Shown here piece after piece: positions 821 through 54,714 of a stretch of 64,000 nt of DNA. The stretch comes from Proteiniphilum acetatigenes DSM 18083. Lineage in GTDB: Bacteria; Bacteroidota; Bacteroidia; Bacteroidales; Dysgonomonadaceae. The stretch is taken from assembly GCF_000380985.1 (NCBI RefSeq), contig NZ_KB905695.1, positions 186,001 to 250,000 of the forward strand, in the 5' to 3' direction. The notes under the pieces are model-generated. The model ran no database searches. It was given only the letters and a program-made list of their open reading frames with translations, and had not been told where the DNA came from. Numbering within the stretch: the stretch's first letter is position 1; the number at the start of each line of letters is the position of its first letter. Made by a program: the position numbers and the translations under genes.

Positions 821-896
821 ACTCCGTAGATTTTCTGTCGTCTCCCGGCATAAAACAAACGTGTTTGCTTCTGCTCTCGCTCCTGAGAGAATTCAC
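821..896 (-). repeat. Dispersed hairpin repeat, copy P (proA-proB spacer)
   Basis: Read on the minus strand this starts GTGAATTCTCTCAGGAGCGA, contains GCAGA, the small hairpin CAAAC-AC-GTTTG, then ATGCCGG and GACGACAGAAAATCTACG. It aligns almost end to end with the copy at 50177-50253 and shares its central block with the other family members. It lies inside the putative proA-proB transcript. Confidence 0.6.
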
Positions 897-902
897 GTTT
901 TT

Positions 903-2090
903 CTACTCCCTTATATGCCCGTTCCCATACACAAACCACTTGTTAGTGACCAACTCCTGCGCACCCAATGGGCCACGGAAGTGCAACTTCTGGGTACTAA
1001 TGGCGATCTCCGCCCCAACGCCGAACTGTCCCCCGTCGGTAAAACGCGATGAAGCATTGTGATAGACTGCGGCACAATCTACCTGTTGCATAAATTCAAC
1101 GGCTTTTGTGGCATCATTAGTGACTATCACCGCCGTATGTCCACCGGAGTAGTAGTTGATCATATTGATGGCATCCTGTATCCCGTCTACGAGAGATATA
1201 TATAGTTTTGGCGCCAGATATTCTTCGCAAAGCGTGGCTGCATTGTTTTCTACCTTAATACTGTTACAGAGAGAGGCTATTTCTTTGTTTCCCCACACCT
1301 CGATACCTTTTTCTGTAAGGTTTGTCACCAGATTAGACAGTTTTTCTTCCAATTCATCGATATCTTTGTGAAGCAACACTTTGTCTATGGCGTTGCATAC
1401 GCTGATACGCTTTTTCCCGTTCACTACCAACCGGACAGCCATTGCGAAATCGGAGTTATCATCCACATAGAGAAAATTATTGCCCCTGCCGCTCACAATG
1501 ACCGGTACCGAAGCGTTCTCCTGCACGAACCGGATCAACCCTTCTCCACCGCGGGGAATAATGAGATCCACCCGGTGACTGTTTTCCCTGATGAGGCGTT
1601 GTGTCTCTTCGCGGGATAGATCGAGATACTGTATGTAGTCCGTGCTGGCATTTTGCCCGGTGAGTGCCTGTTGCCACAGCTCGGTGAGTAATAGATTGGT
1701 CTGGCGCGCTTCTTTCCCTCCTTTCAGCAAAATATGGTTACCGGCCTTGAAAGCAGTTGCCGCCGCTTCGATGGTAACGTCCGGGCGCGATTCGTAAATG
1801 ATCAGGATGGTTCCGAACGGTACCGTCTGATTGACAACACGCAGTCTGTCTTCCCGAACGAATTCATAGAGGGTTTTTCCTTCCGGATCGGGTTGTGAAG
1901 CGACTTCTTCCAATGAACGGATCATTCCGTTGATCTTCTTTTCATCTACTTTAAGCCGGTCCAGCATGGAGTCGTCCATATCGGGAAATGCACTTATATC
2001 GGCCTCGTTGACCTTCATAATCTTCTCTCTGTTTAACTCCAATAGCTGCGCGAGAGAGAGTAATACGTTGTTTTTTTGTTCATTCTTCAT
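903..2090 (-). CDS. proA: Glutamate-5-semialdehyde dehydrogenase (gamma-glutamyl phosphate reductase)
   Basis: This enzyme reduces glutamyl 5-phosphate with NADPH to glutamate 5-semialdehyde, the second step of proline synthesis. The 395-residue protein is near the usual ProA length and belongs to the aldehyde dehydrogenase superfamily. Visible signatures are IYESRPDVTIEAA near residue 98, LLKGGKEA, the stretch IIPRGGEGLI, and the catalytic cysteine C232 in SVCNAIDKVL. The C-terminal GGQFGVGAEIAISTQKLH block is typical of the family. It is the first gene of a proA-proB pair. A -7 element on the minus strand at 2245-2252 and a dispersed repeat at 2150-2231 lie in front of it, so the repeat would be in its leader RNA. 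Confidence 0.96.
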   Translation of the reverse strand: MKNEQKNNVLLSLAQLLELNREKIMKVNEADISAFPDMDDSMLDRLKVDEKKINGMIRSLEEVASQPDPEGKTLYEFVREDRLRVVNQTVPFGTILIIYESRPDVTIEAAATAFKAGNHILLKGGKEARQTNLLLTELWQQALTGQNASTDYIQYLDLSREETQRLIRENSHRVDLIIPRGGEGLIRFVQENASVPVIVSGRGNNFLYVDDNSDFAMAVRLVVNGKKRISVCNAIDKVLLHKDIDELEEKLSNLVTNLTEKGIEVWGNKEIASLCNSIKVENNAATLCEEYLAPKLYISLVDGIQDAINMINYYSGGHTAVIVTNDATKAVEFMQQVDCAAVYHNASSRFTDGGQFGVGAEIAISTQKLHFRGPLGAQELVTNKWFVYGNGHIRE

Positions 2091-2116
2091 ATTGCTGTGA
2101 AATCGAGATGGTGAAA

Positions 2117-2152
2117 AAACTATTTCAGAAAGAAATAGTCTAAATTTATTGA
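2117..2152 (+). repeat. Miniature version of the dispersed hairpin repeat
   Basis: ACTATTTC, five bases, then GAAATAGTCTAA and TTATTGAA. The two ends match the outer stem and tail of the full repeat (ACTATTT...AAATAGTCTAATGTAATTGAA) with the middle removed. It abuts copy D. Confidence 0.45.
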
Positions 2153-2231
2153 ACGTTTTCGTTAAGCTAAATGAGCAAAGTCAAACTTGTTTGAACTTTG
2201 CCATAGCAAGAAGACGACTAATGTAATTGAA
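2150..2231 (+). repeat. Dispersed hairpin repeat, copy D
   Basis: Starts GAACGTTTTCGTTAAGC, contains GAGCAAAGT, the hairpin CAAAC-TT-GTTTG and TTTGCC, and ends with ACGACTAATGTAATTGAA, the family tail. It lacks the GAATTGAAAATCGAGGAGCG segment present in copies A, B and C. Confidence 0.6.
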
Positions 2232-2244
2232 AGTATTTTGGTTC

Positions 2245-2252
2245 CAAAGGTA
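2245..2252 (-). promoter_or_regulatory. Bacteroidetes -7 element for proAB
   Basis: On the minus strand this reads TACCTTTG, a perfect match to TAnnTTTG. It is 155 bases upstream of proA. No convincing -33 TTTG partner is seen at the expected spacing, so this is provisional. Confidence 0.35.
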
Positions 2253-2345
2253 ACAAATTATTCTTAAAAGAATTGCTATGCTACTCAATTTGAATTATGA
2301 TTAAGATGATTTAAACCCTTTGCGGTTTGTAAAGTCCAACTGCCA

Positions 2346-4151
2346 ATGATTAATAAAGAAACTTACACTCAATCTTTTAGAGCCCTTTTCCGGAATCTGG
2401 TTCCTTTTGTGAAACCTTATAGGAGGATGATCGCAGGAACTCTTTTCCTCACACTGATCGGATCATTTGCAGCCCAGGTAAATCCGCTCCTGGTGAATGA
2501 AACGATCACCCGTGTGGAGGAGTTACTCAGGCACCCCGATCCGTTTGAGAACGGGGTCCGGCTGCTGTTGATCATTTCAGCCATTATGTTAGCCAATGAG
2601 CTGTTGAATATCGGTATTCAGTTCGGACAAAAATATTTCGGGGAAAAAATCCGCATTAAAGTGGGGAGTGATCTCTCGCAAGCGTCGGTAGAGAGGATTC
2701 TAAGTTATAAAATGTCTTTTTTTTCCGAGCCCGGGAATCAGACCGGATTGCTACAAACACGTATCAACAGGGGGATAGAGAGCCTTATCGGATTAGTGCA
2801 AAACTTCTTCCTCGATATATTACCCTTGTTCTCTACCGCCATTATCGCTCTTGTGGTGATGTATAACGCCAATCTTTATGTGGGTTTGCTGGCAACGATC
2901 ATCATGCCGGCCTATTTCTACGTAAGCCAGAAACAGGCAGGCCGCCTGAAAGGATGGCGTATCCAGTTGCGTGGACAACGTGAACGTAAAAACCATGGAC
3001 TTATCAATATCATCGACTCTATCACGGTGATCAAAAGTTTTGTACGGGAAGAACCGGAGGGGAAAAAACAATATGATGTGCAGATGGAAATGCTGAACAA
3101 TCAGTTACAGACCCGTCGGACAAGTTATGTATATGAGAGCCTGAAATCGTTTATCCAGCAGATCGGGGTGGTGCTTATCATCATCCTGACTGTGTTCCTT
3201 GTGCTCGACGGGCAGATGGGAATCGGCGCCATTATGATGCATATCATGCTCTTTCGCAACGTATCGGCGCCTATTAGCCAGTTACATCGTATCTACGATC
3301 AGGTCAACGACGCCCTGATCTATGCCGACGGTTTTTTTGAAGTGCTTGCCAACGAAGATGCAGTGGAAGCCGGAGGTGACATCAGGGCCGGGAATGTGCA
3401 GGGGCAGTTTGAAGTGCGTGATGTCACCTTCACCTATCCTAACGGAAAGCAGGCGCTTTCGGATATAAATCTCTTCCTTGAAAAAGGAAAGACTACTGCC
3501 ATCGTAGGATTGAGCGGTGCCGGTAAGAGCACACTCATCAATCTTCTCTGTAAATTTTATAAACCCGATAGTGGAAATATCCTGTTGGACGGGATCGACC
3601 TGGAAGACTATGAGAATGGTTCGTTGCGGAACAATATAGGTCTGGTACTGCAAAAGAATCATATCTTTAAAGGAACAATCTACGACAATATCCTTTACGG
3701 GAAACTCGACGCTACACGGGAAGAGGTGATCGAAGCTTCGAAAAGGGCTTTCCTTCATGAACAGGTACTTTTACTTCCGGAGGGTTACGATACCGATGCT
3801 TTTAATCTGAGCGGCGGTCAACAGCAACGAATTGCCATTGCCCGGCTGTTCCTGAAGAATCCACCCGTAATCTTTCTCGATGAACCTACTGCCAGTCTTG
3901 ATGCGATAGCTACAGAGCATATTAAAATGAGCCTCGATGCCATTAAGGAGGGACGTACCGTGGTGATTATTTCACACTCGCTATCGCAGATCATCGATGC
4001 CGACGTGATCCATGTGTTAAAGGACGGACGATTAGTAGAAACCGGATCACATGAATCGCTCTATAAACTGAACGGAGAATACCGCAAAATATTCGACGCT
4101 TCGGCCCGCAGCCTTAACCTCAATAAGATGCTCGATACCCTTGCCGTTTGA
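2346..4151 (+). CDS. ABC exporter, fused permease-ATPase (type I exporter)
   Basis: A 601-residue half-transporter that should act as a homodimer in the inner membrane, pumping an unknown lipid, peptide or drug with ATP. An N-terminal six-helix exporter domain (about residues 20-330) precedes the nucleotide-binding domain. The latter has Walker A GLSGAGKST at 388-396, the signature LSGGQQQR at 488-495, Walker B VIFLDE at 508-513 and the switch histidine in ISHSL. The Q-loop region reads IGLVLQKNHIFKGTIYDNI. All catalytic residues are present. It stands alone, divergent from proAB. The substrate cannot be told; MsbA-like lipid export and general multidrug export are both possible. Confidence 0.9.
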   Translation: MINKETYTQSFRALFRNLVPFVKPYRRMIAGTLFLTLIGSFAAQVNPLLVNETITRVEELLRHPDPFENGVRLLLIISAIMLANELLNIGIQFGQKYFGEKIRIKVGSDLSQASVERILSYKMSFFSEPGNQTGLLQTRINRGIESLIGLVQNFFLDILPLFSTAIIALVVMYNANLYVGLLATIIMPAYFYVSQKQAGRLKGWRIQLRGQRERKNHGLINIIDSITVIKSFVREEPEGKKQYDVQMEMLNNQLQTRRTSYVYESLKSFIQQIGVVLIIILTVFLVLDGQMGIGAIMMHIMLFRNVSAPISQLHRIYDQVNDALIYADGFFEVLANEDAVEAGGDIRAGNVQGQFEVRDVTFTYPNGKQALSDINLFLEKGKTTAIVGLSGAGKSTLINLLCKFYKPDSGNILLDGIDLEDYENGSLRNNIGLVLQKNHIFKGTIYDNILYGKLDATREEVIEASKRAFLHEQVLLLPEGYDTDAFNLSGGQQQRIAIARLFLKNPPVIFLDEPTASLDAIATEHIKMSLDAIKEGRTVVIISHSLSQIIDADVIHVLKDGRLVETGSHESLYKLNGEYRKIFDASARSLNLNKMLDTLAV

Positions 4152-4165
4152 ATTCAATTACCAAT

Positions 4166-4303
4166 CTTTCACTATACTGTAATTCCCGGTAGGGGTGACT
4201 TCTACCCATTTGCCTTCCACCTTTTTTCGCTTTTGCTGCGGTTCTTGATATAAGTGTAAGCACGTATGAAACAATTCTTTTCCGGTATGCCAGTCTTATC
4301 TTA
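4166..4303 (-). pseudogene. Possible C-terminal gene remnant, unidentified
   Basis: On the minus strand a start-less open frame reads DWHTGKELFHTCLHLYQEPQ followed by QKRKKVEGKWVEVTPTGNYS and IVKDW, then a stop. The composition is protein-like (aromatic residues, charged turns) rather than random, but an in-frame stop sits directly upstream and no ATG is available. It occupies the gap between the convergent ABC exporter and TonB-dependent receptor genes. I do not recognise the family; it could equally be a chance open frame. Confidence 0.3.
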
Positions 4304-6723: not shown

Positions 6724-8022
6724 TTAATCGAACCGGATGATAAATCGTGTCCATCCGTCGGGATAAGTGCGGAGAGAGTACTGGAAGTCGTGCTGGGTAA
6801 GTACTTCGCGGATAAAAAGCAGCCCGATTCCTTGTCCTTGGGGTTTACTGGAAAAGAAGGGATTAAATATCTTTTTCTCGATCTCCTTACTGATTCCTTT
6901 GCCGTTATCCGCCACGACCAGTGTTCGCGGTTGCGAACCTGTGGTGATGACTATTTTTCCCCCTTCTTCAATACTTTCTACCGAGTTCTTGATGATATTA
7001 AGCAACACCTGCTCAAACAGTGATGTGTCGAGTAATACCGGTTGGAGGTTTTCATCGGGTTGAAAAGTGAGTTGAATATTCCTGTTGTGGCACATCACTT
7101 CCATAAAACGCGTCAGGTTGCCGATTAACCGGTTCAGGTCGACAGGTTCCCGCTCCGCTTTCGGAATCTTTACCACATCTGCGAAGTTGGTAATAAAGCG
7201 GCTCATCCCGTAGCACCTCTCCACGCAAATTTGCATGGCCTGGCGCATATCCTGCGCTTCGGGAAGAGACGCCAGTTCCTCGATCACAGTATCGAGGGTA
7301 GAGGTGATCCCCGCAGTGGTATTGTTCACCTCATGCGATATCATACGGATCACTTTTTCGTATGCTTTCTTCTCGGCCCGGCGTACCTCCTCGGTGAGAC
7401 CCTCGATTAAATAGAACGGACGAGGGAATCCCCGGTCGACGAACGATTCCAGCGTACATTTATATACAGTACCGTTACTTAAACCTATAGAACGGGTTTC
7501 ATGCATAGGGATTTCCGAAAGGTCGATCGGCACCGATCCCTTTATTTCAGTGAGTTTTTTACCTTTTATTTCATCTGCATTATCCAGATCCAGTAGTTTG
7601 ACCGCTGCAGGATTCAGGTCGGTGATCTGATGGTCGTAGTTTAGTACGATGACTCCCATGGGTGAAGCGGAGATGAGCAGGTCGAGAAATTCATTCTGTT
7701 CCCTGAGTTGGAGACGTTCGTTCTTCAATTGTGCCATCATCTTATTGAAAATGGCGACCACCCTGTCGGCTTCAAACTGTCCCACCTCACGGAGTCTGGA
7801 ACTGAAATCCTGCTCCCGGAGCAGATCCATTCCGCTACTGATCATTTGCAGCGGTCGTACCGTTTTCCGGTAGAAAACAGCCAGATATACCAAGGCCACC
7901 AGGATGAGCCCTTCTAAGGTTACTGTTTTCCACGACAATGTATGCAGATTTTCGTAGAGTATGAACCCGAAGATCAACAGCAATAAAAATACCAGGATAT
8001 AGAAGTATACTCTCAATTTCAT
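6724..8022 (-). CDS. Membrane sensor histidine kinase (NtrB/NtrY-like)
   Basis: Inner-membrane sensor kinase of 432 residues. Two transmembrane helices occupy about residues 5-22 and 33-51 with almost no periplasmic loop between them, so the signal is probably sensed in or close to the membrane. A HAMP-like segment, a PAS domain (about 105-200, ASPMGVIVLNYDHQITDLNP), the H-box with H230 in MISHEVNNT, an N-box NIIKNSVESI and G-boxes VVADNGKGIS and GQGIGLLF follow. It is encoded downstream of the sigma-54 response regulator, which is its likely phosphorylation partner, and belongs to the tolC-led operon. Partner assignment rests on gene order. Confidence 0.9.
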   Translation of the reverse strand: MKLRVYFYILVFLLLLIFGFILYENLHTLSWKTVTLEGLILVALVYLAVFYRKTVRPLQMISSGMDLLREQDFSSRLREVGQFEADRVVAIFNKMMAQLKNERLQLREQNEFLDLLISASPMGVIVLNYDHQITDLNPAAVKLLDLDNADEIKGKKLTEIKGSVPIDLSEIPMHETRSIGLSNGTVYKCTLESFVDRGFPRPFYLIEGLTEEVRRAEKKAYEKVIRMISHEVNNTTAGITSTLDTVIEELASLPEAQDMRQAMQICVERCYGMSRFITNFADVVKIPKAEREPVDLNRLIGNLTRFMEVMCHNRNIQLTFQPDENLQPVLLDTSLFEQVLLNIIKNSVESIEEGGKIVITTGSQPRTLVVADNGKGISKEIEKKIFNPFFSSKPQGQGIGLLFIREVLTQHDFQYSLRTYPDGWTRFIIRFD

Positions 8023-8159
8023 ATTTTAAATTCAAGAATCAAGAATCAAGATTTGGCTTACACCTATTGTTAATTGACTACGTCGATTACTAATTCAGAT
8101 TTAAATCACTCTATCTTTTAATCATCACACCATCACATCTCCGAATCATTATATCATTT
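8023..8159. other. Spacer with AT-rich direct repeats
   Basis: The gap between the regulator and kinase genes begins with ATTCAAGAATCAAGAATCAAG and includes TTGACTACGTCGATTA, the same kind of spacer text found at 37140, 45770, 46916 and 62048. No gene or clear promoter seen. Confidence 0.4.
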
Positions 8160-15100: not shown

Positions 15101-15108
15101 AATATGAT

Positions 15109-27277: not shown

Positions 27278-27690
27278 TTTATATTTTCTCTGTTTTTTAT
27301 ATTCTTTTTTTTACTTATTTATTTGTTTGAAATTCAGTGAAGTTATACCAATTGGAAAACTTTTTCTCTCTTTGGTAAAATTAATTATCTGATTATTAAT
27401 ATTTTATGATTTTTTATGGAGAACTTTGGGATTTTGTTGATAAAAAAATAGATAAAAATTTTGGATTCTTAGAAACTTTCCATAAACTTGCAAAACCAAA
27501 AAACCTTACTTTGATAAATTGAGTGGTCTGTTTTGGAGAATAAGTGACATTTTAGAACTATTTCGTTAAGTGAGAGCAGAAACAAAGCTTGCTTTGGTTT
27601 TGCCGAGCGCAGAATTGGAAATCGAGAAGCGAAGGCGATTCAAAATGTCTAATGTAATTGAAATTTTATTTATTATATAATTTTTTCCTG
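27278..27690. other. AT-rich leader region upstream of nrdJ
   Basis: Over 400 bases without a gene. The first 260 bases are very AT-rich and featureless to my eye; the last part is filled by a dispersed repeat (27546-27662). No cobalamin riboswitch could be recognised even though the downstream enzyme needs B12. Confidence 0.4.
27546..27662 (+). repeat. Dispersed hairpin repeat, copy B
   Basis: Core AACTATTTCGTTAAGTGAGA, then GCAGAAA, hairpin CAAAGC-TT-GCTTTG, TGCCGAGCGCAGAATTGGAA, ATCGAGAAGCGAAGGCGATT and the tail TCTAATGTAATTGAA. The outer stem is GACATTTT (27546-27553) with AAAATGTC (27642-27649), a different pairing from copies A and C. Ends 28 bases before the nrdJ start. Confidence 0.7.
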
Positions 27691-37051: not shown

Positions 37052-37604
37052 ACTAATGTGTCAATGTGCCAATGAGACTAATCCCGACAAGTCGGAACAT
37101 GTAGTGCCAATGAGACTGATAAAACTAATGTGATAATTTTACGATTTGATTACGTCGATTTGCAATTCATAATCTTAAATCTGAATTGAAACAACGTTCG
37201 GCGGAGCCAAAATCAGCGTAGCTAAATCTTGAATCATCTTACATATAAAGTGAAAAGCAGACTGCAATCAGAGAAGATCTTCTTGCTAATCTGCTTTTTA
37301 TAAAAAGCCGCACCGGTGGAATAAGACGAAACTCCTTATGACAGGATTTGAGTGTCCGGGTATCTTTGTAATCCGCTGTCCCGGTAAAACCGGAATCCCG
37401 AAGGATGCGGCCCGCCATTGATACCAAAAACGAGTCTCGGTTCATAAAATGTAATTGATGAGTTTCCCAATCGACCAATGCGGCAATAACTCATTCAATT
37501 GTATTTTCAAAGATAGGGGCTAAAAATGAAACTTCCAAATTATTTATGTTATTTTTTACCCTTTTTCGTCTGTTTATCCGCAATAGCGCTTATTTTCAGT
37601 GGAG
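37052..37604. other. Long intergenic region with short repeats, no convincing gene
   Basis: First part: CAATGTGCCAATGAGACTAAT twice, then CGTCGATTTGCAATTCATAATC, ACAACGTTCGGCGGAGCC and GCGTAGCTAAATCTTGAATC, all of types seen in other gaps. A 79-codon minus-strand frame (37239-37478) is open but has no recognisable motifs and no ribosome site; I do not call it a gene. Confidence 0.4.
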
Positions 37605-43498: not shown

Positions 43499-44107
43499 AT
43501 GGAATTAAAGGAACGAATTATAGAAAAAGCGGGCGATCTGTTCCGGCAATACGGTATAAAGAATGTGTCGATGGATGAGATAGCATCCTCGATAGGTATC
43601 TCTAAAAGAACATTGTATGAGAATTTCAAAGATAAGGAAGATATTCTGTTGTCTACACTTGTCTGGTTTGGAGATAGAAGAAAAGAGATGTTTGAAACTC
43701 TTTTCGCTCAATGCAATAATGTGGTGGAGGTTTTTATCAAAATCATCGAAGTGCATGAGAATGCACCTGTTTGCAATGTAAAATTCTTCGAAGATATTCA
43801 GAAATATTATCCTCGGGCTGCCAGTCTAATCAGGAGGCATACCGAGATCAATAATATTCATTTGAGGAATTTCCTGCGGCAGGGGATTGAAGAGGGATAT
43901 ATCCGTGAGGATCTGAATGTGAATGTAGCTGCCTTTCTGGTAGAAGAAAGTACCTACACTTATATCCGCGCCTCCTACCTCGAAAAGCCTCCTTTTTCGT
44001 TTAGAGAACTTTTTTACACAATGATGATCAATTTTGTGCGGGGTATCATGACCGGAAAAGGGATTCGGATTATAGATGCCTACCTGGAACAACAAAAAAA
44101 CAAATGA
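43499..44107 (+). CDS. TetR/AcrR-family regulator 1 (efflux operon)
   Basis: A 202-residue repressor-type protein. The N-terminal helix-turn-helix is MELKERIIEKAGDLFRQYG, IKNVSMDEIASSIGISKRTL and YENFKDKEDI; the ligand domain has no family-wide motif. The open frame begins at 43433, but those codons cover the -33/-7 promoter, which fixes the start at 43499. It precedes the tolC-MFP-RND operon on the same strand by 210 bases, a gap containing a dispersed repeat. It closely resembles the second TetR at 58821 (ERIIQQATDLFSLHGIKNVS), so the two came from one ancestor. It likely represses its own operon. Confidence 0.92.
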   Translation: MELKERIIEKAGDLFRQYGIKNVSMDEIASSIGISKRTLYENFKDKEDILLSTLVWFGDRRKEMFETLFAQCNNVVEVFIKIIEVHENAPVCNVKFFEDIQKYYPRAASLIRRHTEINNIHLRNFLRQGIEEGYIREDLNVNVAAFLVEESTYTYIRASYLEKPPFSFRELFYTMMINFVRGIMTGKGIRIIDAYLEQQKNK

Positions 44108-44190
44108 ACTGTTTCTTTGCTGGAAATTAACTGAGATTAGTTGACTATGTCGAACGTAGAAAAAGTCTGAAAGAAACGGTCTTTTTAATG

Positions 44191-44296
44191 AACTATTTCG
44201 TTAAGCGAATACATAGTCAAAACTTGTTTTGACTATTTGAGCGTAGAATTGAAAATCGAGGAGCGAAGACGACTCAAATAGTCTAATATAATTGAA
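44191..44296 (+). repeat. Dispersed hairpin repeat, copy A
   Basis: AACTATTTCGTTAAGCGAAT, then the perfect 11-bp hairpin ATAGTCAAAAC-TT-GTTTTGACTAT (44213-44236), TGAGCGTAGAATTGAAAATC, GAGGAGCGAAGACGACTC and AAATAGTCTAATATAATTGAA. Outer stem ACTATTT/AAATAGT. A degenerate 3' half (GACTATGTCGAACGTAGAAAAAGTCT) precedes it near 44140-44168. Confidence 0.75.
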
Positions 44297-44317
44297 CTAT
44301 TAAAAGAAGTGATTATA

Positions 44318-45766
44318 ATGAATCTACGAAGTATAATACTATTATTACTAATGCTGTCGGGCCTTGCCGGCTTATCGACGGCGACAGCACAACAAACCGA
44401 TAGTTTGCGGATCGATTTGAACCGGGCATTGGAGATTGCCTTGAGCGAAAATCCCACGGTGAAGATAGCCGATATGGAGATCACCAAGAAGCAGTATGCG
44501 AAGAAATCGGCCTACGGTGCACTCCTGCCGCAGATGGACCTGATCGGGCAGTACCAGCGTGCCATCAAAAGGCAGACGGTATATTTTGATGAAGGTTTCA
44601 GCTTCATGGGTGGCGACATTAATCCCGGAGACTATACCGACGATGAGTTACAGATACTGCAGGTGTTGCAAAAGGTGATGGGTGGTGATACCGAAAGTTC
44701 CGGAGAAGGTATCCAGATGGGACGTTTCAATTCCTGGTCGGCGGGGTTGAATGTAAGCCTGCCGTTAGTGGTACCCTCGCTCTGGAAAAATATCCAGATG
44801 AGTGAGGTGGATATCCAACTTTCCATGGAGAAAGCACGTGCATCGCGCATCGATCTGGTGAACCAGGTAAAGAAATCATTCTTCAGCCTGCTGCTGGCAC
44901 AGGACAGCCACGACGTTTTCAGGAAAACCTACGAAACAGACTCCATTAACCTGGAGGACATCCGTAACCGCTACAATCAGGGGATAGTGGCTGAATATGA
45001 TGTGATCACCGCCGATGTACGGCTGAAAAGCCTTATCCCCAGTATACTCCAGTCGGAGAATATGATGAAAATCGCCGAACTGCAACTGAAAATGCTGATG
45101 GGGATCGACAGCGATATGCCGCTGAAAGTGGTAGGTTCACTGGATGATTATGAGAAGAGTATGTTTGATGCCATTATCCCGGCAGACACTTCGCTCATGA
45201 ACAACAGCGATATCAGGCAATTCGACCTGCAGACCGAACAAGCACAGAAAGCCTATGAACTGCAGAAACTGCAGTATGCTCCCTCACTCGTTACCTCTTT
45301 CAACTGGACTTATATGAGCCAGAACAACGATTTCAAGATCAGCACTTACCGCTGGGATCCTTATTCCATGCTGGGTGTTACGCTTCAGATACCTCTCTTC
45401 AGTGGCGGACAACGCTACCACAACTTGAAACAATCGCAGATACAGCTATGGCAGTTGGATGAACAGCGCAAGGATGTGGAACGGGGGCTCAAACTGTCGA
45501 TCAGGAACAACTACGACCTTATCCACAAAAATATCGAGCAGGTGGTGGCTACCCAGTCATCTGTGGAGCAGGCCCGCAAAGGTCATGAGATCACTCTGAA
45601 GCGATACGAGACGGGGATGGGTACCATCGTGGATGTCAATGCGGCGGCATTGGCTGTGCTGAATGCCGAATTGCAGTACAGGAACGCTATTTACGACTAT
45701 CTCTCAGCCAAAGCTGACCTGGAAAAGGTGCTCGGCTATGATATTGCACCGGTGAATATAGAATAA
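44318..45766 (+). CDS. TolC-family outer membrane factor 1 (RND system)
   Basis: A 482-residue channel. Signal peptide MNLRSIILLLLMLSGLAGLS to ATAQQ; two OEP domains with characteristic text (LNRALEIALSENPTVKIADM, YDVITADVRLKSLIPSILQS, GTIVDVNAAALAVLNAELQY, RNAIYDYLSAKADLEKVLGY). The ORF opens three codons earlier (MII), but the AAAGAAG ribosome site is better spaced for the MNLRS start. First structural gene of an efflux operon with the adaptor 126 bases and the pump a further 73 bases downstream. Highly similar to the second copy at 59442. Confidence 0.94.
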   Translation: MNLRSIILLLLMLSGLAGLSTATAQQTDSLRIDLNRALEIALSENPTVKIADMEITKKQYAKKSAYGALLPQMDLIGQYQRAIKRQTVYFDEGFSFMGGDINPGDYTDDELQILQVLQKVMGGDTESSGEGIQMGRFNSWSAGLNVSLPLVVPSLWKNIQMSEVDIQLSMEKARASRIDLVNQVKKSFFSLLLAQDSHDVFRKTYETDSINLEDIRNRYNQGIVAEYDVITADVRLKSLIPSILQSENMMKIAELQLKMLMGIDSDMPLKVVGSLDDYEKSMFDAIIPADTSLMNNSDIRQFDLQTEQAQKAYELQKLQYAPSLVTSFNWTYMSQNNDFKISTYRWDPYSMLGVTLQIPLFSGGQRYHNLKQSQIQLWQLDEQRKDVERGLKLSIRNNYDLIHKNIEQVVATQSSVEQARKGHEITLKRYETGMGTIVDVNAAALAVLNAELQYRNAIYDYLSAKADLEKVLGYDIAPVNIE

Positions 45767-45892
45767 AGATTTAAGATTCAAGATTCAAAATTTAATATTC
45801 GAATGGCAAATCAACGTAGTCAAATCTGAAATCTGAAATCTTGAATTTTGAATGTGGAACCCAATTTAAAAATAAAATATATAAATAATTAT
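45767..45892. repeat. AATCTTGAATTT-type spacer repeat
   Basis: Gap between tolC1 and the adaptor gene: AAGATTTAAGATTCAAGATT, AATCAACGTAGTCAAATCTG and AAATCTTGAATTTTGAATG. Related text lies at 8030, 37150, 46920 and 62050. Confidence 0.45.
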
Positions 45893-46915
45893 ATGAGACG
45901 ATACAGTTTATTGAGAATAACTCCTTTACTGGCAGTTGCATTGCTTGCTTCCTGTGGAGGAGCAGACCGTACCGGAAGCGCTGAAAGTGAAGCTTCACAG
46001 AAAACAAGGGTACGTGTAGAAGAGGTGCAGTTAGTGCCGGTGGATCAGATATCTACCTTTACCGCTACGGTAGAGGCCGATCAGGTGAATAATATTGCTC
46101 CCGCCATGGGAGGACGGATCCGCGAGATTAAAGTAGATGTAGGTTCGCAGGTTCGTCGTGGGCAGGCCCTGGTAACCATGGATAAGGCAAATCTTTCACA
46201 ACAACAGACACAGGTTGCCACGTTAAAGAGGGACTATGAACGCTATAAAGAGTTGTATGAAGTGGGTGGTATTTCCAAACAGCAGCTCGATCAGGCAAAG
46301 ACCCAACTCGATGTGGCGGAGTATGCCCTGAATAATCTGGATGAGAATACTACACTGACCAGTCCGGTAAACGGGGTGGTGACTGCCCGTAATTACGATC
46401 CGGGTGATGTGGCCGGACAATTGCCTATCCTCACCATTGAGAGTATCAATCCGGTGAAGGTGAAAGTCAATGTTTCAGAGTCTTATTATAGCCAGGTGGT
46501 GAAGGGAATGCCTGTGGAAGTGTTAGTAGACGCCTTGGGCGGTGAAAGGTTTCAGGGAAGTGTATCACTGATCTACCCCACGCTTGACCCGGTTTCGCAC
46601 ACTTTTACCGTAGAGATATCGGTGCCTAACGGTGATCAGCGGCTGCGTCCCGGCATGTTCGCCCGTGTGAGGATGAATTTCGGCACCAACGAGCGTCCGT
46701 TGCTTTCCGACAGGGCTGTCCTGAAGCAGGTAGGTTCTAATGATCGCTATGTATTTGTGGAAAAAGACGGGAAAGCTGTCTATACGTTGGTACAACTGGG
46801 AGTCCGGATCAATGATAAATATGAGATCGTCTCAGGGCTGAACGATGGTGACAGGGTAATCGTAGAGGGTAATACAGGCCTGATTGACGGGACTGAAGTG
46901 GAAGTTATTGATTAA
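45893..46915 (+). CDS. RND periplasmic adaptor lipoprotein 1 (HlyD/AcrA family)
   Basis: A 340-residue membrane-fusion lipoprotein. Start MRRYSLLRITPLLAVALLAS gives a lipobox with C21; earlier frame positions are unlikely. Lipoyl halves surround a helical hairpin: ATVEADQVNNIAPAMGGRIR, VGSQVRRGQALVTMDKAN, the coiled hairpin VATLKRDYERYKELYEVGGI, then TLTSPVNGVVTARNYDPGDV. The barrel and membrane-proximal domains follow (VKVNVSESYYSQVVKGM, RLRPGMFARVRMNFG). It should be bound to the inner membrane through its lipid and dock TolC1 and RND1. Confidence 0.94.
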   Translation: MRRYSLLRITPLLAVALLASCGGADRTGSAESEASQKTRVRVEEVQLVPVDQISTFTATVEADQVNNIAPAMGGRIREIKVDVGSQVRRGQALVTMDKANLSQQQTQVATLKRDYERYKELYEVGGISKQQLDQAKTQLDVAEYALNNLDENTTLTSPVNGVVTARNYDPGDVAGQLPILTIESINPVKVKVNVSESYYSQVVKGMPVEVLVDALGGERFQGSVSLIYPTLDPVSHTFTVEISVPNGDQRLRPGMFARVRMNFGTNERPLLSDRAVLKQVGSNDRYVFVEKDGKAVYTLVQLGVRINDKYEIVSGLNDGDRVIVEGNTGLIDGTEVEVID

Positions 46916-46988
46916 AATTCAAAATTTGAATTGCAAATCAGCGAAGCTAAATCTTGAATTTGAAATCTTGAATTAAAAATATATAAGT
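46916..46988. repeat. AATCTTGAATTT-type spacer repeat
   Basis: TTCAAAATTTGAATTGCAAA, TCAGCGAAGCTAAATCTTG and AAATCTTGAATTAAAAATAT, the same kind of text as before RND2 and after tolC1. Confidence 0.45.
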
Positions 46989-49900
46989 ATGAAGATATAT
47001 GAAACCGCGGTGAAAAATCCCGTGGGAACATCATTAATATTTATCGGTGTTGTGCTGATAGGCTTTTTGTTCTACAGGCAATTGCCTATAGATCTCTATC
47101 CCAATATCGACCTGAATATCGTCTCGGTCATGACCTCCTATGCGGGTGCAGGTGCTGAAGACGTGGAGACCAATGTAACCCGTCCGCTTGAAGATGTCCT
47201 GAACTCTACCGAGAAACTGAAAGAAATTACATCACAATCGAGGGACGGTATGTCAATGATCATGCTGGAGTTCGAATTCGGTACAGATATGGATGCCGTG
47301 ATGAACGATGTGCGGGATAAGGTATCTCTGATATCGGGCTTTTTGCCTGACGGTACGGAAGATCCCATGATCCTGAAGTTCAGCTCTGACATGATACCGG
47401 TAGTAGTGCTCTCTGCCACCGCACAAGAGAGCTCGGGAGCACTGTATAAGATACTCGACGAACAGGTGGCCAACCCGCTCAACCGTATTTCGGGTGTGGG
47501 TACTGTTTCCGTCAGTGGTGCCCCCCAAAGGGAGATACAGGTGAATGTGGTACCTGAAAAACTGGAGGCATACAATATTTCCCTGGAACAGATCGCACAA
47601 GTGATCGCCACTGAAAATGTGAATGTCCCTGCCGGTAATTTCGATATCGGCACGCAGACCTATATGTTACGTCTCGAGGGAGAATTCAAGAACAGCCGCG
47701 ACCTGAACAATATCATTGTGGGTAACAACCAGGGACGCGCCATCTATCTGCGGGATGTGGCATCGGTGAAAGATACACTGGAGTCCCGTATACAGGAGAA
47801 TTATACCAACGGACAGCGGAGTGCTTCCATTGTGGTACAGAAACAGTCGGGTGCCAACACCGCAGCGATTGCTGATGCGGTAAAAGCACAGTTGCCTGTG
47901 CTGGAAAAGAGTCTTCCGCCCGATATCAAGCTTGTTACGGTAATGGATACTTCCGATTATATTAAAGTATCCATCAATAGTTTGCTGGAGACGATCGTGC
48001 TGGCACTTATTATCGTCGGTATCATCGTGCTTTTCTTCCTGGGGCGGTGGCGTGCCACTATCATTATCATGGTGACCATACCCATCTCGCTGATCGGGTC
48101 GTTTATTTATCTTTACCTTACCGGGAACTCCATTAATATCATCTCGCTCTCGGCTCTTTCCATTACCATCGGGATGGTGGTGGATGATGCCATTGTGGTG
48201 TTGGAAAACATTACCACCCATATTGAACGGGGGAGCCGAGTCAGACAGGCTGCTGTGTACGGTACGGAAGAAGTATCCCTTTCCGTAATCGCCTCTACAC
48301 TGACCATTATTGCGGTATTCTTACCGATGACTATGGTCGGTGGTTTTGCCGGTGTGATGTTCAAGCAGTTGGGATGGATGGTAACCATCATTATTTCTCT
48401 GTCGCTGATCATAGCCTTGACACTTACCCCGATGATGAGTGCGAAGATGATGCGGTCGAACAAGGATGCCAAGGTGTCCGGTTTTGACAGGTGGTATAAT
48501 AAAAGGATATTACCGGTACTCAACAGAATCGATCATGCTTATGCCCGATTGGTGAATTGGGTGGCCCGCAGGAGGCGACTCACATTATTGGGTGTGCTGG
48601 TTGTTTTTATTATAAGTGTGGTTGTCAGTGCTATCACGTTGAAAACGGAATTTATGCCGGCGTCCGACAACAATGAAATTGCCATTACCGTGGAGATGCC
48701 TACCGGAACCCGTATGGAAGTCGCCCGGGAGACAGGCCACAGGATAGCACAGGGAATGCAGGAGAAATATCCGGAGATAGAGATCATCTCTTTCAGTGTG
48801 GGTGCGGCCGATGAAGATAACACCTGGGCGGCTATGCAGGAAAATGCTTCCAATATCATGACCTATACGATGCGTTTGACGGAGGCCAAGAACAGAAAAA
48901 AGACGATCTACGATATATCAGACGAAATACGTCAGGATCTTGCCAATATGCCGGAGTTGCACCGTTTCCGGGTAATGCCGGGTGGAGGCGATATGGGAAT
49001 GACCGGTGGAAGTAATGTCGCATTGGATATATATGGTTACGATTTGGCTGCGACCGACCAACTCGCTGCTGAGATGAGAACTAAACTGGAAGGAGTGAAA
49101 GGATTGCGCGATATCACGGTATCGAGAAAAGATTACCGGATGGAGTACCAGATACAGTTCGATCGTGAGAAATTAGCGTTGAACGGACTGAACATGAGTA
49201 CGGCGGCCAATGCTATCAGAAACAGGATCAACGGTCTTGTCATGTCACGTTTCCGTGAAGAAGGAGAAGAGTATGATATTCGGGTACGGTATGAAGAACA
49301 ATACCGCCAGTCTATCGAAGATATCGAAAATATATTGATATACAACACGATGGGAGCCGGTGTGCGGGTACGTGATCTGGGGACAGTAATAGAAACTTCT
49401 ACACTGCCGCAGATCGACCGTCAGGATCGCCAGCGTATTGTGACGGTGACCGGTACCATTTACGGACGTGCCCTGAGTGAGGTGGTGACCGATGTAAATA
49501 CCATTATGGCCGAAGCAGATCTGCCGGCAGGAGTACAGATGGAGATCGGTGGATCGCTGGAAGACCAGCAGGAATCATTTTCACAGTTGGGACTTCTTCT
49601 TATGATCGTTTCTCTGCTGGTATATATTGTATTGGCATCGCAGTTCGAATCGCTCACCTATCCGTTTATGATCATCCTGACCGTGCCGTTTGCTTTTACC
49701 GGTTCTATCCTCTTCCTTGCCCTTACGGGAGAACCGCTCGGCATCATGGGATTTGTGGGATTGATCATGCTTGTGGGGATGGTGGTAAAGAACGCCATCG
49801 TGTTGATCGACTACATCAACCTGAACAGGGAGAGAGGTATGTCCATTATCACGGCGGTAGTACATGGAGGCCGTTCGAGGTTGCGCCCCGTATTGATGAC

Positions 49901-50117: not shown

Positions 50118-50362
50118 AAGTGGAAAATTGAAAATTAAGAATTAAGAATGAATAGTGAAGAAGTTAAAACTAAAAGTGAATTTTCTTAGGAGCGAGGGCA
50201 GAGTCAAATTTATTTGCACTATGCCGAGTGATGACAGAAAACCTACGTAGTGAAAAGTGAATATGAGAGCCAAGAATCAAGACTATAGAAATTCTTGACT
50301 TCTTGGACTTCTCCACTTCCTACTTCTAATTTTTAACTTCTAACTTCTAAAAGATAAAAAGA
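50118..50362. other. Spacer between RND1 and the PG0541-like gene
   Basis: Contains a dispersed repeat (copy E), ATTGAAAATTAAGAATTAAG near 50130 and CTTCTAATTTTTAACTTCTAACTTCTAAAA before the gene. No gene seen. Confidence 0.4.
50177..50253 (+). repeat. Dispersed hairpin repeat, copy E
   Basis: GTGAATTTTCTTAGGAGCGA, GGGCAGAGT, hairpin CAAAT-TT-ATTTG, CACTATGCCGAGTGATGACA and GAAAACCTACGTAGTGAAA. Near-collinear with the copy between proA and proB (minus strand, 821-896). Confidence 0.65.
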
Positions 50363-50656: not shown

Positions 50657-50679
50657 TTTGATCCGGATGATCAATTTCG

Positions 50680-51279: not shown

Positions 51280-51388
51280 AAAATATATCTCCTTAAATAC
51301 TCCATCTTTTATTATTCCTTCCAATTATTTCAATACTGCTATACTGAAGTTTGGCAGGTAAAGTACCGTTTGGATAGCTCTATGTCGA

Positions 51389-51414
51389 CGTTGCTGAAAA
51401 GTAGCGCCTTTCTT
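51389..51414 (+). repeat. 26-bp exact direct repeat, right copy
   Basis: Same sequence as 50686-50711. The upstream arm that would complete the terminator (AAAGGCG) is absent; the preceding bases are TATGTCGA. It retains the T-run (TTTCTTTTT). Confidence 0.85.
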
Positions 51415-51629
51415 TTTGGATTTTCCGTCGTACATGTTACAGTCGGCAACTTTTTGGTATCGATTTTTTACAGTTGGGTAACCAAAACATTCGTTTCGGT
51501 AAGTTTGTAAAAAAAGGCGCGAAACTGTACTATAACTTTGTATTATAAAAATTAGGGATTATTCAAATTTTATCAAGCAATGAAACGAGCATAATAATCA
51601 TTCACACATAAGTAAATGATTGAAGCGAG

Positions 51630-51703
51630 TTCACTAAAGTTAGACTTTTTCTACACTCGGCAAAGTAAATAAATTTACTCTGCTCTCGTTTAACGAAAAA
51701 GTT
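51630..51703 (-). repeat. Dispersed hairpin repeat, copy F
   Basis: On the minus strand: AACTTTTTCGTTAAACGAGA, GCAG, hairpin AGTAAAT-TT-ATTTACT, TTGCCGAGTGT, AGAAAAAGTCTAAC. Outer stem ACTTTTT/AAAAAGT, a compensated change relative to copies A and C. Confidence 0.65.
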
Positions 51704-51726
51704 CCATACACCATAAAGAAAAAATA
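51675..51726 (+). repeat. 52-bp duplication, left copy
   Basis: TTACTCTGCTCTCGTTTAAC...CATACACCATAAAGAAAAAATA; matches 52311-52362 with three mismatches. The two copies flank the small-peptide and thioredoxin-like genes. The left half is part of repeat copy F. Confidence 0.8.
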
Positions 51727-51730
51727 TCGT

Positions 51731-51844
51731 ATGAAAAAGGGATTAAGGATAGCCATTGTATCTACCGTATCTGTAATAGTGTTTTCAGTGATGAGTTTTA
51801 CAGGAATAATCTTATTGAGAAGGCAGATTATAAGCAGATATTGA
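51731..51844 (+). CDS. Predicted 37-residue single-pass membrane peptide
   Basis: Reads MKKGLRIAIVSTVSVIVFSV then MSFTGIILLRRQIISRY. A basic N-terminus, one hydrophobic helix (about 7-29) and a basic C-terminus form a credible small membrane protein. It lies 11 bases upstream of the thioredoxin-like gene on the same strand. An A-rich stretch (AAAGAAAAAATATCGT) precedes the ATG; no strong Shine-Dalgarno is expected in this phylum. It is bracketed, with its neighbour, by the 52-bp duplication. Evidence is composition and context only. Confidence 0.4.
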   Translation: MKKGLRIAIVSTVSVIVFSVMSFTGIILLRRQIISRY

Positions 51845-51855
51845 AGAGGTAAATA

Positions 51856-52308
51856 ATGGATAATAGTCATTCTTTTTATTTCAGACCCTGGCATTTTATA
51901 TTGGCAATTGTAATATTCTTCGTACTGACCGGAGTTATAGCCGAAAAAAAAGTGAACCATATTCCTTTGTCGGAAGAAGGCAATTCGATTCTGACCGAAT
52001 TACATGAGGTTAATCTTGACAAAGAGAGTATAAACTTCCTGTTTTTCTATCGGAAAGATTCCGAATTATGCCGGAAGATGCGATACAATATAGAGCAATT
52101 GGATGCCGAAAGTCTTCACGGTATCAATTTTTACGCTATGGATATTGAAGAGAATTCTGAATATTATTATAAGTACAATATCTCCGGAATTCCCAACCTG
52201 TTAATACTTAACGGAGATGTTGAAACAAAACGAGTCATGGGTATTGTATCTACCGATAATTTAGAGAAAATAGTGAATAGGGTAAAAGCTATTGATCCAA
52301 ATAAATAA
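51856..52308 (+). CDS. Membrane-anchored thioredoxin-like protein without CxxC
   Basis: A 150-residue protein. One N-terminal helix (WHFILAIVIFFVLTGVIA, about 12-29) and an extracytoplasmic thioredoxin-like domain: strand NFLFFYRKDSELCRKM, DIEENSEYYYKYNISGIPNL-LIL with the cis-proline motif SGIPN. The active-site CxxC is reduced to a single Cys (SELCRKM), so it is unlikely to be a classic oxidoreductase and may instead bind or chaperone a protein. Co-directional with the 37-residue peptide upstream. Family identification is from pattern only. Confidence 0.65.
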   Translation: MDNSHSFYFRPWHFILAIVIFFVLTGVIAEKKVNHIPLSEEGNSILTELHEVNLDKESINFLFFYRKDSELCRKMRYNIEQLDAESLHGINFYAMDIEENSEYYYKYNISGIPNLLILNGDVETKRVMGIVSTDNLEKIVNRVKAIDPNK

Positions 52309-52310
52309 AA

Positions 52311-52362
52311 TTACTCTGCTCTTGTTTAACGAAAAAGTTACATACACCATAACGAAAAAATA
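52311..52362 (+). repeat. 52-bp duplication, right copy (half of repeat family)
   Basis: TTACTCTGCTCTTGTTTAAC...CATACACCATAACGAAAAAATA; three mismatches to 51675-51726. Contains, on the minus strand, the first part of a dispersed repeat (AACTTTTTCGTTAAAC, AAGAGCAGAGTAA) that stops at the central hairpin. Confidence 0.8.
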
Positions 52363-52504
52363 AAAATATAAAACGAGCAGAAGAAAAGTTCTTACAAAGG
52401 AACATGATTACTGCGGAACAACGTTCGACGACCGAACGGGTGTCAATTCCACACACCATAATGTATATATAAAATAATCGTGTGAAAATAAATGATTTAA
52501 TCAT

Positions 52505-53446
52505 ATGAAACAAAGAACCATAAGAGAAGCTTTTTCTATCAAGGGGAAAGGATTACACACAGGGGTAAAAACTACTATCACATTCCGGCCGGCGCCTGTT
52601 GATTTCGGATACAAGATCAAACGGACTGATCTTCAAGGAAGCCCGGTAATTACGGCTTCTGCCGAAAATGTAATGAATACCCAAAGATGTACTGTCTTAC
52701 TTGTAGATGGAGTACAGGTTGCTACGATAGAACATGCGTTGGCTGCACTTTACGGATGTGAGATTGATAATTGCCTGATTGAAATTGATTCTCCTGAATT
52801 TCCGATACTGGATGGGAGCGCTGTTGAATATGTGAATAATATTCACAGGGTAGGTTTCGAAGAGCAGTCTGAAGAGAGGATCTATTATGAGGTGGATCAG
52901 AATATTGAATATTTCGATGCTGAAACAGGATCATACCTGATATTAATGCCCTCTGACAGATTTAGCATCCATGTGCAGATAGCATTCGACTCGGAGGTTT
53001 TACCTGTACAAAAGGCCTTTCTGGAAAATTTATCCGATTTTAAAGATGAAGTCTCGATGTGCAGAACATTTGTCTTTATAAGAGAGATCGAAAGTCTCCT
53101 GAAAACCGGATTGATTAAGGGCGGGGACCTGGATAACGCAATTGTTATTTACGATCAACTCATTCAACAGAAGGAATTGGATCGGTTGGCCGATGTCATG
53201 GGTATAGAGAGGAGAAAGATTGATAAAACCGGATATATAGTAAATAAGCCGCTTTTGTTTCCTAATGAACCCGCAAGGCATAAATTACTGGATGTTATCG
53301 GAGATATAGCCCTTGTCGGCAGGTTTATCAAAGGAAGAATAATCGCAAATCGTCCCGGTCACCGGATCAATAACCTGTTCGCAAGGAATATAGTTGAACA
53401 GATCGAAACGAGGTCTGTCTTTGAGATGCATACAAATTTTTCATAG
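52505..53446 (+). CDS. lpxC: Stand-alone LpxC, UDP-3-O-acyl-GlcNAc deacetylase
   Basis: Catalyses the committed step of lipid A synthesis, zinc-dependent deacetylation of UDP-3-O-acyl-GlcNAc. The 313-residue protein keeps the catalytic set: E76-H77 in TIEHALAALYG, H259 and D263 in ARHKLLDVIGD, and H286 in NRPGHRINN, plus SPEFPILDGSAVEYV and MCRTFVF. Bacteroidetes usually encode LpxC fused to FabZ in a protein of about 460 residues; here the protein ends after LpxC and no fabZ follows. It may be an extra, accessory copy. It lies among repeats beside efflux genes, not in the usual lpx cluster. Essential versus accessory cannot be decided from this window. Confidence 0.9.
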   Translation: MKQRTIREAFSIKGKGLHTGVKTTITFRPAPVDFGYKIKRTDLQGSPVITASAENVMNTQRCTVLLVDGVQVATIEHALAALYGCEIDNCLIEIDSPEFPILDGSAVEYVNNIHRVGFEEQSEERIYYEVDQNIEYFDAETGSYLILMPSDRFSIHVQIAFDSEVLPVQKAFLENLSDFKDEVSMCRTFVFIREIESLLKTGLIKGGDLDNAIVIYDQLIQQKELDRLADVMGIERRKIDKTGYIVNKPLLFPNEPARHKLLDVIGDIALVGRFIKGRIIANRPGHRINNLFARNIVEQIETRSVFEMHTNFS

Positions 53447-53461
53447 AAAACCCCCATTAAT

Positions 53462-53722
53462 ATGAAGACTATCTTTTTATTTGTCAGGAGAAACATGATC
53501 TCTTTTCTGGGTATGACTCTGGGATTGATAGGCGGATATCTTTACTGGCTATATTATGGGATCTATGACGGTACATTTGGTTTTTCTTCGGAATTGTGGA
53601 CAAATTGCGTGTATGGATTATTGTTTGGAGGATTGATAGGCAGCTTAATTAGAAAAAAAACGATCAATCATTATGAGAAAAAAAACAATTTTGATCACAG
53701 GAGCGACACAGGGCATGGGTAA
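53462..53722 (+). CDS. DUF6132-like small membrane protein
   Basis: An 86-residue membrane protein with two hydrophobic helices (MISFLGMTLGLIGGYLYWLY, about 12-32, and CVYGLLFGGLIGSLI, about 50-64). The GGYLYW and YGxxxGxxxGSL pattern recalls the DUF6132 family, usually annotated as a YtxH- or rhodanese-linked small membrane protein, but the cysteines common there are absent. Its last 50 bases overlap the start of the SDR gene in a different frame, implying translational coupling. It follows lpxC by 15 bases. Confidence 0.6.
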   Translation: MKTIFLFVRRNMISFLGMTLGLIGGYLYWLYYGIYDGTFGFSSELWTNCVYGLLFGGLIGSLIRKKTINHYEKKNNFDHRSDTGHG

Positions 53723-54548
53723 AGCCGCGGCATTGGCCTTAGCAAAACAAGGGCACCATATTATTATCACGGGTCGTAAAGAGTACGAAACCGTTCAGGT
53801 ACAACAGGAGATCATTTTAGAAAGCGATAACCCTCATGTTGATTATCTTTTAGCCGATTTGTCACTGCTGGGTAATATCCATCAATTGGCAGAAAGGTTC
53901 AAGCAGCGCTTTGACGGATTAGACATACTCATCCACAATGCAGGAGGCATTTTTGGTAAGGAAAGGATGGAGACTGCCGACGCGATAGAAAAGACCATTG
54001 CCTTAAATTTCGTCGCACCTTACTTGTTGACCGCGTTACTTACCGACGAGCTACAAAAGCATTCCGATGCGCGCATTGTATTTACAGCTTCGGATGGACA
54101 TAGTTCTATGGCAAAACCCGACTTTGAGGATATAGAATTAAAACAGGGGTACACAGCCGGAAGGGCTTATGGGAATGCAAAACTCTTCTTGATCATGATG
54201 TCTCAGGAATTAGACCGGAAGTTTAAAGAGACAGGTATTGATATTACCGTCAACTCACTTCATCCCGGTGTGGTGATAAACCAGAAAATGGTGGAAGATG
54301 CGAAAAGAAGAGGCTTTTTAGGAAAAGCAATCATGCTTCCTCTGATGCGGTTGCTGATGAAAACAGCAGAACAGGGAGCGGATACCATTGTTTATCTCGC
54401 TTCTTCGGAAGAGGTGGAAGATACCAGCGGCTTGTATTTTTACAACCGCAAACCTAAGAAGGTAAATAAGAAATATATTTCGGTGGAGACAAAAGAGATC
54501 ATTTGGAACTATTGCGAGACGATAACAGGAGTAAAATTATTCAAATAA
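53673..54548 (+). CDS. Short-chain dehydrogenase/reductase (retinol-dehydrogenase-like)
   Basis: A 291-residue NAD(P)-dependent oxidoreductase. Cofactor motif TGATQGMGKAAA near residue 10, HNAGG near 89, and the catalytic pair in YGNAK (Tyr and Lys). ITVNSLHPGVVINQK follows the active site. The layout resembles retinol dehydrogenase/WW-oxidoreductase-type SDRs that are widespread as genes of unknown substrate. The start is within the preceding small gene (50-base overlap). Downstream is a dispersed repeat. Confidence 0.88.
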   Translation: MRKKTILITGATQGMGKAAALALAKQGHHIIITGRKEYETVQVQQEIILESDNPHVDYLLADLSLLGNIHQLAERFKQRFDGLDILIHNAGGIFGKERMETADAIEKTIALNFVAPYLLTALLTDELQKHSDARIVFTASDGHSSMAKPDFEDIELKQGYTAGRAYGNAKLFLIMMSQELDRKFKETGIDITVNSLHPGVVINQKMVEDAKRRGFLGKAIMLPLMRLLMKTAEQGADTIVYLASSEEVEDTSGLYFYNRKPKKVNKKYISVETKEIIWNYCETITGVKLFK

Positions 54549-54604
54549 AATCTCTTACTACTCGCTAATAAATTCTTGTACGCCGACAGAGATGACACAA
54601 ATGA

Positions 54605-54714
54605 AACTATTTCGTTAAGCAATACGAACAGAAGACAAGCTTGCTTGTATTATGTCGTTGCGAGAATTGAAAATCGAGGAGCGAAGGCGACTCAAATAGT
54701 CTAATGTAATTGAA
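54605..54714 (+). repeat. Dispersed hairpin repeat, copy C
   Basis: AACTATTTCGTTAAGCAATA, CGAACAGAAG, hairpin ACAAGC-TT-GCTTGT, TGTCG, TTGCGAGAATTGAAAATC, GAGGAGCGAAGGCGACTC, AAATAGTCTAATGTAATTGAA. Shares ends and tail with copies A and B, but the 5' central part differs. Confidence 0.75.

Follow-up and report, generated by a model that had tools for sequence, protein, structure and literature searches.

The stretch analysed here, 64,000 nt of Proteiniphilum acetatigenes DSM 18083 (C4:186001-250000 of a 4,776,693-base, 37-contig genome; contig NZ_KB905695.1; hereafter the window), carries copies of a dispersed hairpin repeat about 75-160 nt long. We consider it probable (roughly 0.7) that these copies are members of one family of mobile DNA hairpins, non-coding and apparently non-autonomous, whose arms are kept paired largely by template switching. 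The family is best filed as an apparently new form of miniature hairpin mobile DNA, the mobiliser of which was not found.

The element is built around a core of ~80 nt. Read 5'->3', the core begins with GAAC, the outer left arm, CGTTAAGC, the middle stem and an apical hairpin with a two-base loop, and continues through the returning middle stem, GAG, an optional 29-nt module and the outer right arm to a tail of the form CTAA..TTGAA, which is often a mini-hairpin itself. The outer stem arms are inverted but subterminal, since the left end is GAAC and the right end is a variable tail ending in TTGAA. An earlier note on this DNA had described a central hairpin with a 2-base loop, and such a hairpin is indeed general: among the 102 readable tips parsed from 128 matches of at least 42 bits (26 skipped), the loop is TT in 78, AA in 18 and another sequence in 6. 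The 29-nt module, AATTGAAAATCGAGGAGCGAAGGCGACTC, is a hairpin at the right base of the core; by eye, its last 18 nt form a hairpin in which two G.A mismatches lie side by side. Modularity, nesting and end tags were read by eye among the own-genome copies listed. In that reading, the module is present or absent as a clean block, and in some copies it occurs two or more times; it is added separately from the core. Whole elements are nested in the apex of others at C4:137711, C13:38044, C2:342966, C5:224353 and C1:355805. No coding role was seen, and 21 of 125 copies overlap a crudely called open reading frame (ORF) of at least 70 codons.

The covariance model used, R1, derives from an alignment (A2) of 17 long copies, three of which lie in the window (54603-54716, 27554-27664 and 44189-44298); the other four window matches are non-training, and the E-values of R1 are rough. 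All seven copies proposed by the earlier note are scored by R1, five at E<=5.6e-9 (including the three training copies) and two cousins at E 0.0048 and 0.0085, and the miniature it proposed can be read directly as an outer stem with a right tail. Its half copy at 52311-52339 is not independent, as it falls within a local duplication. The copies and related features of the window are as follows.

54605-54714, + strand: long-form element (R1 54603-54716, E 2.4e-26)
54606-54612 and 54694-54700, + strand: outer stem of the 54605 element, ACTATTT / AAATAGT
54635-54648, + strand: apical hairpin of the 54605 element, ACAAGC-TT-GCTTGT
54665-54693, + strand: 29-nt module of the 54605 element, with the tail CTAATGTAATTGAA at 54701-54714
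27546-27662, + strand: long-form element (R1 27554-27664, E 1.1e-21)
44191-44296, + strand: long-form element upstream of an outer-membrane efflux gene (R1 44189-44298, E 3.4e-21)
44105-44182, + strand: possible decayed copy adjoining the 44191 element (R1 E 0.62, weak)
2150-2231, + strand: short-form element without the 29-nt module, in a divergent intergenic region (R1 2150-2233, E 4.1e-12)
2117-2152, + strand: miniature with outer stem and right tail only (read directly)
51630-51703, - strand: short-form element with outer stem ACTTTTT/AAAAAGT (R1 51628-51705, E 5.6e-9)
821-896, - strand: cousin subfamily (R1 790-895, E 0.0048)
50177-50253, + strand: cousin subfamily (R1 50177-50256, E 0.0085)
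52299-52362, no strand assigned: within a 64-bp duplication, 92% identical to 51663-51726 (R1 E 3.7)
56275-56360, - strand: third hairpin repeat (R1 E 0.23, weak)

The 27546 element ends 28 nt 5' of the putative ATG start (27691) of a ribonucleotide reductase gene and has an extra upstream arm, GACATTTT (27546-27553), which pairs with the right arm AAAATGTC. The copy at 821-896 is flanked by the genes of an amino acid kinase and of an aldehyde dehydrogenase family protein; by eye, this copy and that at 50177-50253 have the central hairpin in common with the main family and different ends.

The covariance-model search that the earlier note had proposed did find further copies. When 150 of 2142 first-look candidates in the genome were scored, R1 gave 130 matches below E 1e-3 and 135 at E<=0.1, some of them overlapping or nested, and the complete genome G015 gave 94 matches. 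The description of a dispersed, mostly intergenic, structured repeat resembling miniature inverted-repeat transposable elements (MITEs) or repetitive extragenic palindromes (REPs) is borne out.

The element looks mobile because orthologous sites in relatives are without it. The gap orthologous to the 54605 site has no element in G015, and that of the 50177 site has none in 6/6 relatives. The 821 site is empty in G015, G012 and G013 and filled in G010 and G007 (G026 is not readable), and the 2150 site is empty in G015 and G012, the two readable among six relatives. At the 44191 site, by eye, three tandem elements stand in G010, remnants are seen in G015 and G007, and no element is present in G012, G026 and G013; a remnant similar to the 2117-2152 miniature occurs in G007 at this 44-kb locus. 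Outside the window, empty orthologous sites were found for C13:94932 and C3:135236, as well as for C14:51491 (in G010, G015 and G007), C2:109578 (in G007) and C2:105937 (in G015 and G007). At C14:51491, TGAAC stands on both sides of the insert and once in the empty site, which reads GGTGAACTATTAA in G010; at C2:109578, the insert has TTTGAAT on both sides. We infer that insertion rather than loss lies behind most of these differences.

The element sits at TTGAA/TGAAC-like sites, mostly intergenic, upstream of genes, or in the apices of hairpin repeats. GAA, or a near match to it, closes the left flank in the 87 copies parsed (G in 71, A in 86 and A in 85), and the left and right flanks agree beyond permutation at 4/10 positions, with a contribution from tandem copies. 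The third hairpin repeat (56275-56360) is multi-copy and contains ..GAGCCAAGCTTGTTTGAGCTTTTCCGAGGCGCATCC..; a main-family element occupies the apex of such a repeat at C6:111149, C3:221348 and C20:35237, and in free third-type repeats the apex is TTGAGC, close to the TGAAC-like target.

Paired positions change together, as the earlier note had reported from the window copies. The 17 copies contain 59 double-change cells against a shuffled mean of 24.1, the 110 own-genome rows 326 against 126.9, and the 63 distinct rows from other genomes 172 against 55.5, and in each case none of 500 shuffles reaches the observed count; sliding the partners leaves 10 to 59 double changes in the own-genome rows and 21 to 35 in the others. 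The 110 distinct own-genome rows derive from 100 loci (L139-L156 are among the loci left out). Both larger alignments were fitted to R1 and the copies are related, so that these counts lean towards structure. A table of outer arms gives 36/95 complementary combinations against 13.8 expected and is noisy, the right arm often being misplaced.

Selected RNA tolerates G.U and does not tolerate A.C. In the outer and apical stems taken together, with two poor pairs left out, 1591 cells contain 30 G.T and 26 A.C. The outer stem without its first, often unpaired pair contributes 14 G.T and 12 A.C in 648 cells, that first pair adding A.C 5 and G.T 0; the apical stem contributes 16 and 14 in 943 cells without one poorly aligned pair, and 19 and 28 in 1038 cells with it. 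The two covarying stems thus show no RNA preference in their mismatches, and no choice of kept pairs in them favours RNA. The tRNA control, a small one with the offset of each end chosen to maximise pairing, gives G.T 10 and A.C 0 in 120 pairs of 10 tRNAs. The arms also vary as whole units: AGAGGC or ATAGTC occurs with GACTAT or GCCTCT in all four combinations, two tip types are exactly inverted over 28 nt and a third over 24 nt, and one tip type was found mismatched, perfect to either arm, and inverted. Because G.T is about as frequent as A.C, unlike in tRNA stems, and because the arms change as blocks, exact inversions included, the pairing does not look RNA-selected. The covariation looks instead to carry marks of DNA template switching, which predicts copied, swapped and inverted arm blocks. 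Two published accounts describe template switching as homogenising arms and inverting spacers (PMC8604942) and as making compensatory changes (PMC8794818). The earlier note had taken the paired changes as a sign of selection on structure in RNA or single-stranded DNA; selection on RNA finds no support as the source of the pairing, and selection on DNA structure may still play a part.

For the preferred reading of mobile DNA hairpins, we propose that a trans-acting enzyme would move the element, acting on the folded DNA and on a TGAAC-like target. Template switching between the hairpin arms during DNA replication may then keep the arms complementary, a single switch making compensatory changes in one step, and placement upstream of genes may reflect where insertion is favoured or tolerated.

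Several observations weigh against this reading. The mismatch count depends on the pairs kept (G.T 33 and A.C 40 with the poor apical pair), the small tRNA control used an offset picked for maximal pairing, and the module hairpin shows a weak G.T lean (G.T 12 and A.C 5 in 260 cells). Selection on DNA structure is not told apart here from mutational homogenisation. The empty site at C2:109578 is TTTATGAAT, not TTTGAAT; at C2:105937 an adjoining repeat in G015 leaves room for a deletion between repeats; and only some sites show a plain flanking direct repeat, none being clear at C13:94932 or 54605. Neither an enzyme nor a parent element turned up in the searches described below, and a mobiliser may lie elsewhere. 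The orientation of the copies, described next, would also fit an RNA role.

The genomic context was assessed with ORFs of at least 90 codons starting from ATG; ORF calling was crude, and copies that share a gap are not independent. Among 111 gaps holding an element, 74 are tandem, 33 divergent and 4 convergent, compared with 49, 8 and 6 among 63 element-free gaps of at least 100 nt (divergent versus convergent, p=0.018). In tandem gaps, 55 copies are co-directional with the genes and 24 opposed (p=0.0006), and other ORF rules give 50:24 (p=0.003; 103/125 copies classified). In other genomes, where 41 of 66 hits were used (weak and cut hits and one partial hit were left out) and 29 lie in gaps, 15 are co-directional and 8 opposed (p=0.21), with 4 in divergent and 2 in convergent gaps. 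No replication-strand bias was seen in the complete G015, with 25+/24- and 20+/25- by halves (p=0.54, origin assumed near position 1). Such gene-upstream placement may be insertion preference, tolerance or function. If function, the element could be a structured RNA in 5' leaders, co-transcribed and folding to stabilise or regulate the mRNA, with covariation arising from RNA selection. The orientation bias, the excess of divergent over convergent gaps, the strong covariation and the 12:5 G.T lean of the module would all suit a leader RNA. We nevertheless think it unlikely, given that the two covarying stems do not favour G.T over A.C, that tips are exactly inverted and arms swapped, that copies interrupt one another, that 24 copies oppose their genes, that the bias in other genomes is 15:8 (p=0.21), and that Rfam has no match. 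The only Rfam family found was RF01693, elsewhere in the window, with nothing up to E 1 for 54400-54900, in agreement with the earlier note, whose author knew of no named family that matches. That single match is a 6S-Bacteroidales RNA at 37300-37485 (- strand, 141 bits).

The remaining alternatives concern what moves the DNA. An ordinary MITE, that is, an internally deleted insertion sequence (IS) derivative moved by the transposase of that IS, is a possible though doubtful account: the element is short, non-coding and of high copy number, has subterminal inverted arms, and is bordered by TGAAC on each side at C14:51491. However, its ends do not look like clean inverted repeats. Inspection by eye of 16 loci where left ends fall outside R1 hits revealed no parent transposon, a weak search with an exact pattern and unannotated genes; the ~170 nt read per left-end match hold complete or decayed elements, chance matches or an rRNA region. 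Nor did any of 20 genes next to copies and clusters have a Pfam match to a transposase or recombinase. These are the genes beside the window copies, own-genome clusters and the arrays of genome G303, and 18 of them have Pfam matches, including amino acid kinase, ribonucleotide reductase, TetR, efflux, P-II, thioredoxin, MraZ and SusD. One copy is common to four contig ends (L252, L253, L254 and L255); an IS at these ends was considered and set aside, as tRNA-Ile and tRNA-Ala apparently lie in L252 and L253 (an assignment inferred from positions 23 bases apart) and the copy probably adjoins an rRNA operon with these tRNAs. The note had allowed that the copies might prove to be plain decayed IS ends, which this weak parent search did not show; its finding survives its own refutation criteria, because further copies exist and the covariation exceeds the controls.

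We give little credence to a REP-like element, or a doublet of REPs forming a hairpin (REPIN), moved by a single-copy REP-associated tyrosine transposase (RAYT), even though a hairpin that is mostly extragenic, polymorphic and of high copy number is what such a system offers. The linked RAYT/IS200-type transposase that the earlier note had suggested looking for did not turn up: PF01797 has 0 matches at E<=1e-3 in the 37-contig assembly, estimated as 100% complete, compared with a match in 5/14 control genomes. This reading would regain weight if Pfam had overlooked a divergent Y1 enzyme, or if such an enzyme lay in an assembly gap. REPs carry a tetranucleotide tag, GTAG or CGTC, at one end (see also PMC3733652), and neither was seen in the copies listed. 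An integron attC site was also rejected, as by eye the GTTAAGC of the core has no inverse box to go with it when set against the attC consensus. It is likewise improbable that these are transposase-free parasites, hairpins spread by replication errors in which the folded strand switches template at short TTGAA homologies. If that were true, one process would insert the elements, nest them in apices, invert their tips and keep their arms complementary, and in families of this kind covariation would testify to how the copies are made and not to any function.

In the family Dysgonomonadaceae, 63/101 genomes (own included) and 10/15 genera have matches. A first set of relatives gave 33/61 genomes (own included), 32/36 of the congeners, and 0/24 genomes representing 24 other families, and a wider draw from the order gave 7/295 (own included), five of them outside the family. 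In G303, one of the genomes outside the family, 12/12 scored candidates match. By eye, the apical hairpin is common to these outside cousins, some of which are in tandem, and the tail in G303 is also nearly the same. The 29-nt module contains a 20-mer that is present, letter for letter, in 83 stretches of genome contigs titled Proteiniphilum, Petrimonas, Dysgonomonas, or metagenome-assembled genomes called Bacteroidales or Prevotellaceae; in Dysgonomonas sp. 520 it lies inside repeats unrelated to the element. At L159, L166, L208 and other loci of that strain, the unrelated inverted repeat carrying the 20-mer is GTCATCCTGAACAGAGTGAAGGATCTG .. CAGATTCTTCGTTGCACTCAGAATGACA. Plasmids and phages gave no match with one long copy as query, and four exact left-end matches in viral contigs had no element behind them by eye. 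Separately, L273 (C2:93000-106000) is 97-100% identical to G015 over ~13 kb, and because long matches elsewhere are mostly 82-96% identical, this suggests recent exchange between lineages.

Other repeated sequence was noted in the window. The segments 43505-47600 and 58824-62824 are paralogous in five blocks of 144-300 nt with 69-76% identity, the former holding TetR and outer-membrane efflux genes. AT-rich dispersed repeats at 8016-8103, 37135-37187, 45757-45847, 46914-46974 and 62038-62204 belong to another repeat family, and several of them contain sequence like TTGCAAATCGACGTAGTCAA.

Covariation is commonly taken as strong proof of functional RNA. The paired changes described here seem to arise at the DNA level, which is a warning for covariation-based RNA discovery, and more than 100 related hairpins in one genome offer a natural test set for the origin of compensatory changes. 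The element is also an abundant, modular addition to mobile DNA, placed mostly upstream of genes, and raises the question of what moves it; no earlier description of such repeats in Dysgonomonadaceae was found among the papers listed, which does not prove that none exists.

The small dispersed repeats (SDR) that Elhai et al. reported from cyanobacteria are mobile repeats of 21-27 bp, tiny and non-coding, that nest in larger repeats, and to our knowledge no enzyme is known for them. On that description the present element would resemble them in being a tiny mobile non-coding nested repeat with a 29-nt module of about SDR size, and differs in its phylum, its ~80-nt core, its three stems and its exchanged arms. 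SDR are named in PMC3116915, where REPINs and RAYTs appear as extragenic hairpin mobile DNA of high copy number; the element shares these traits, but its genome is without a PF01797 match and, by eye, it is not a doublet of inverted REPs. The double-hairpin elements of fungal mitochondria are mobile hairpins too, and are organellar. MITEs are defined in PMC4596501 as non-coding, 50-1000 bp long and of high copy number, and the element fits in size (~75-160 nt), non-coding nature and copy number (130 matches); its inverted arms are subterminal and its right end is variable. The BrickBuilt MITEs of Porphyromonas gingivalis, described in the same source, are Bacteroidales miniatures too, lack a transposase of their own and contain an internal unit in tandem; their 23-nt unit AGAYCATARTATCCTCTCRTRTG is by eye unlike the 29-nt module, and their terminal inverted repeats resemble those of IS elements, whereas no IS match was found for the element described here.

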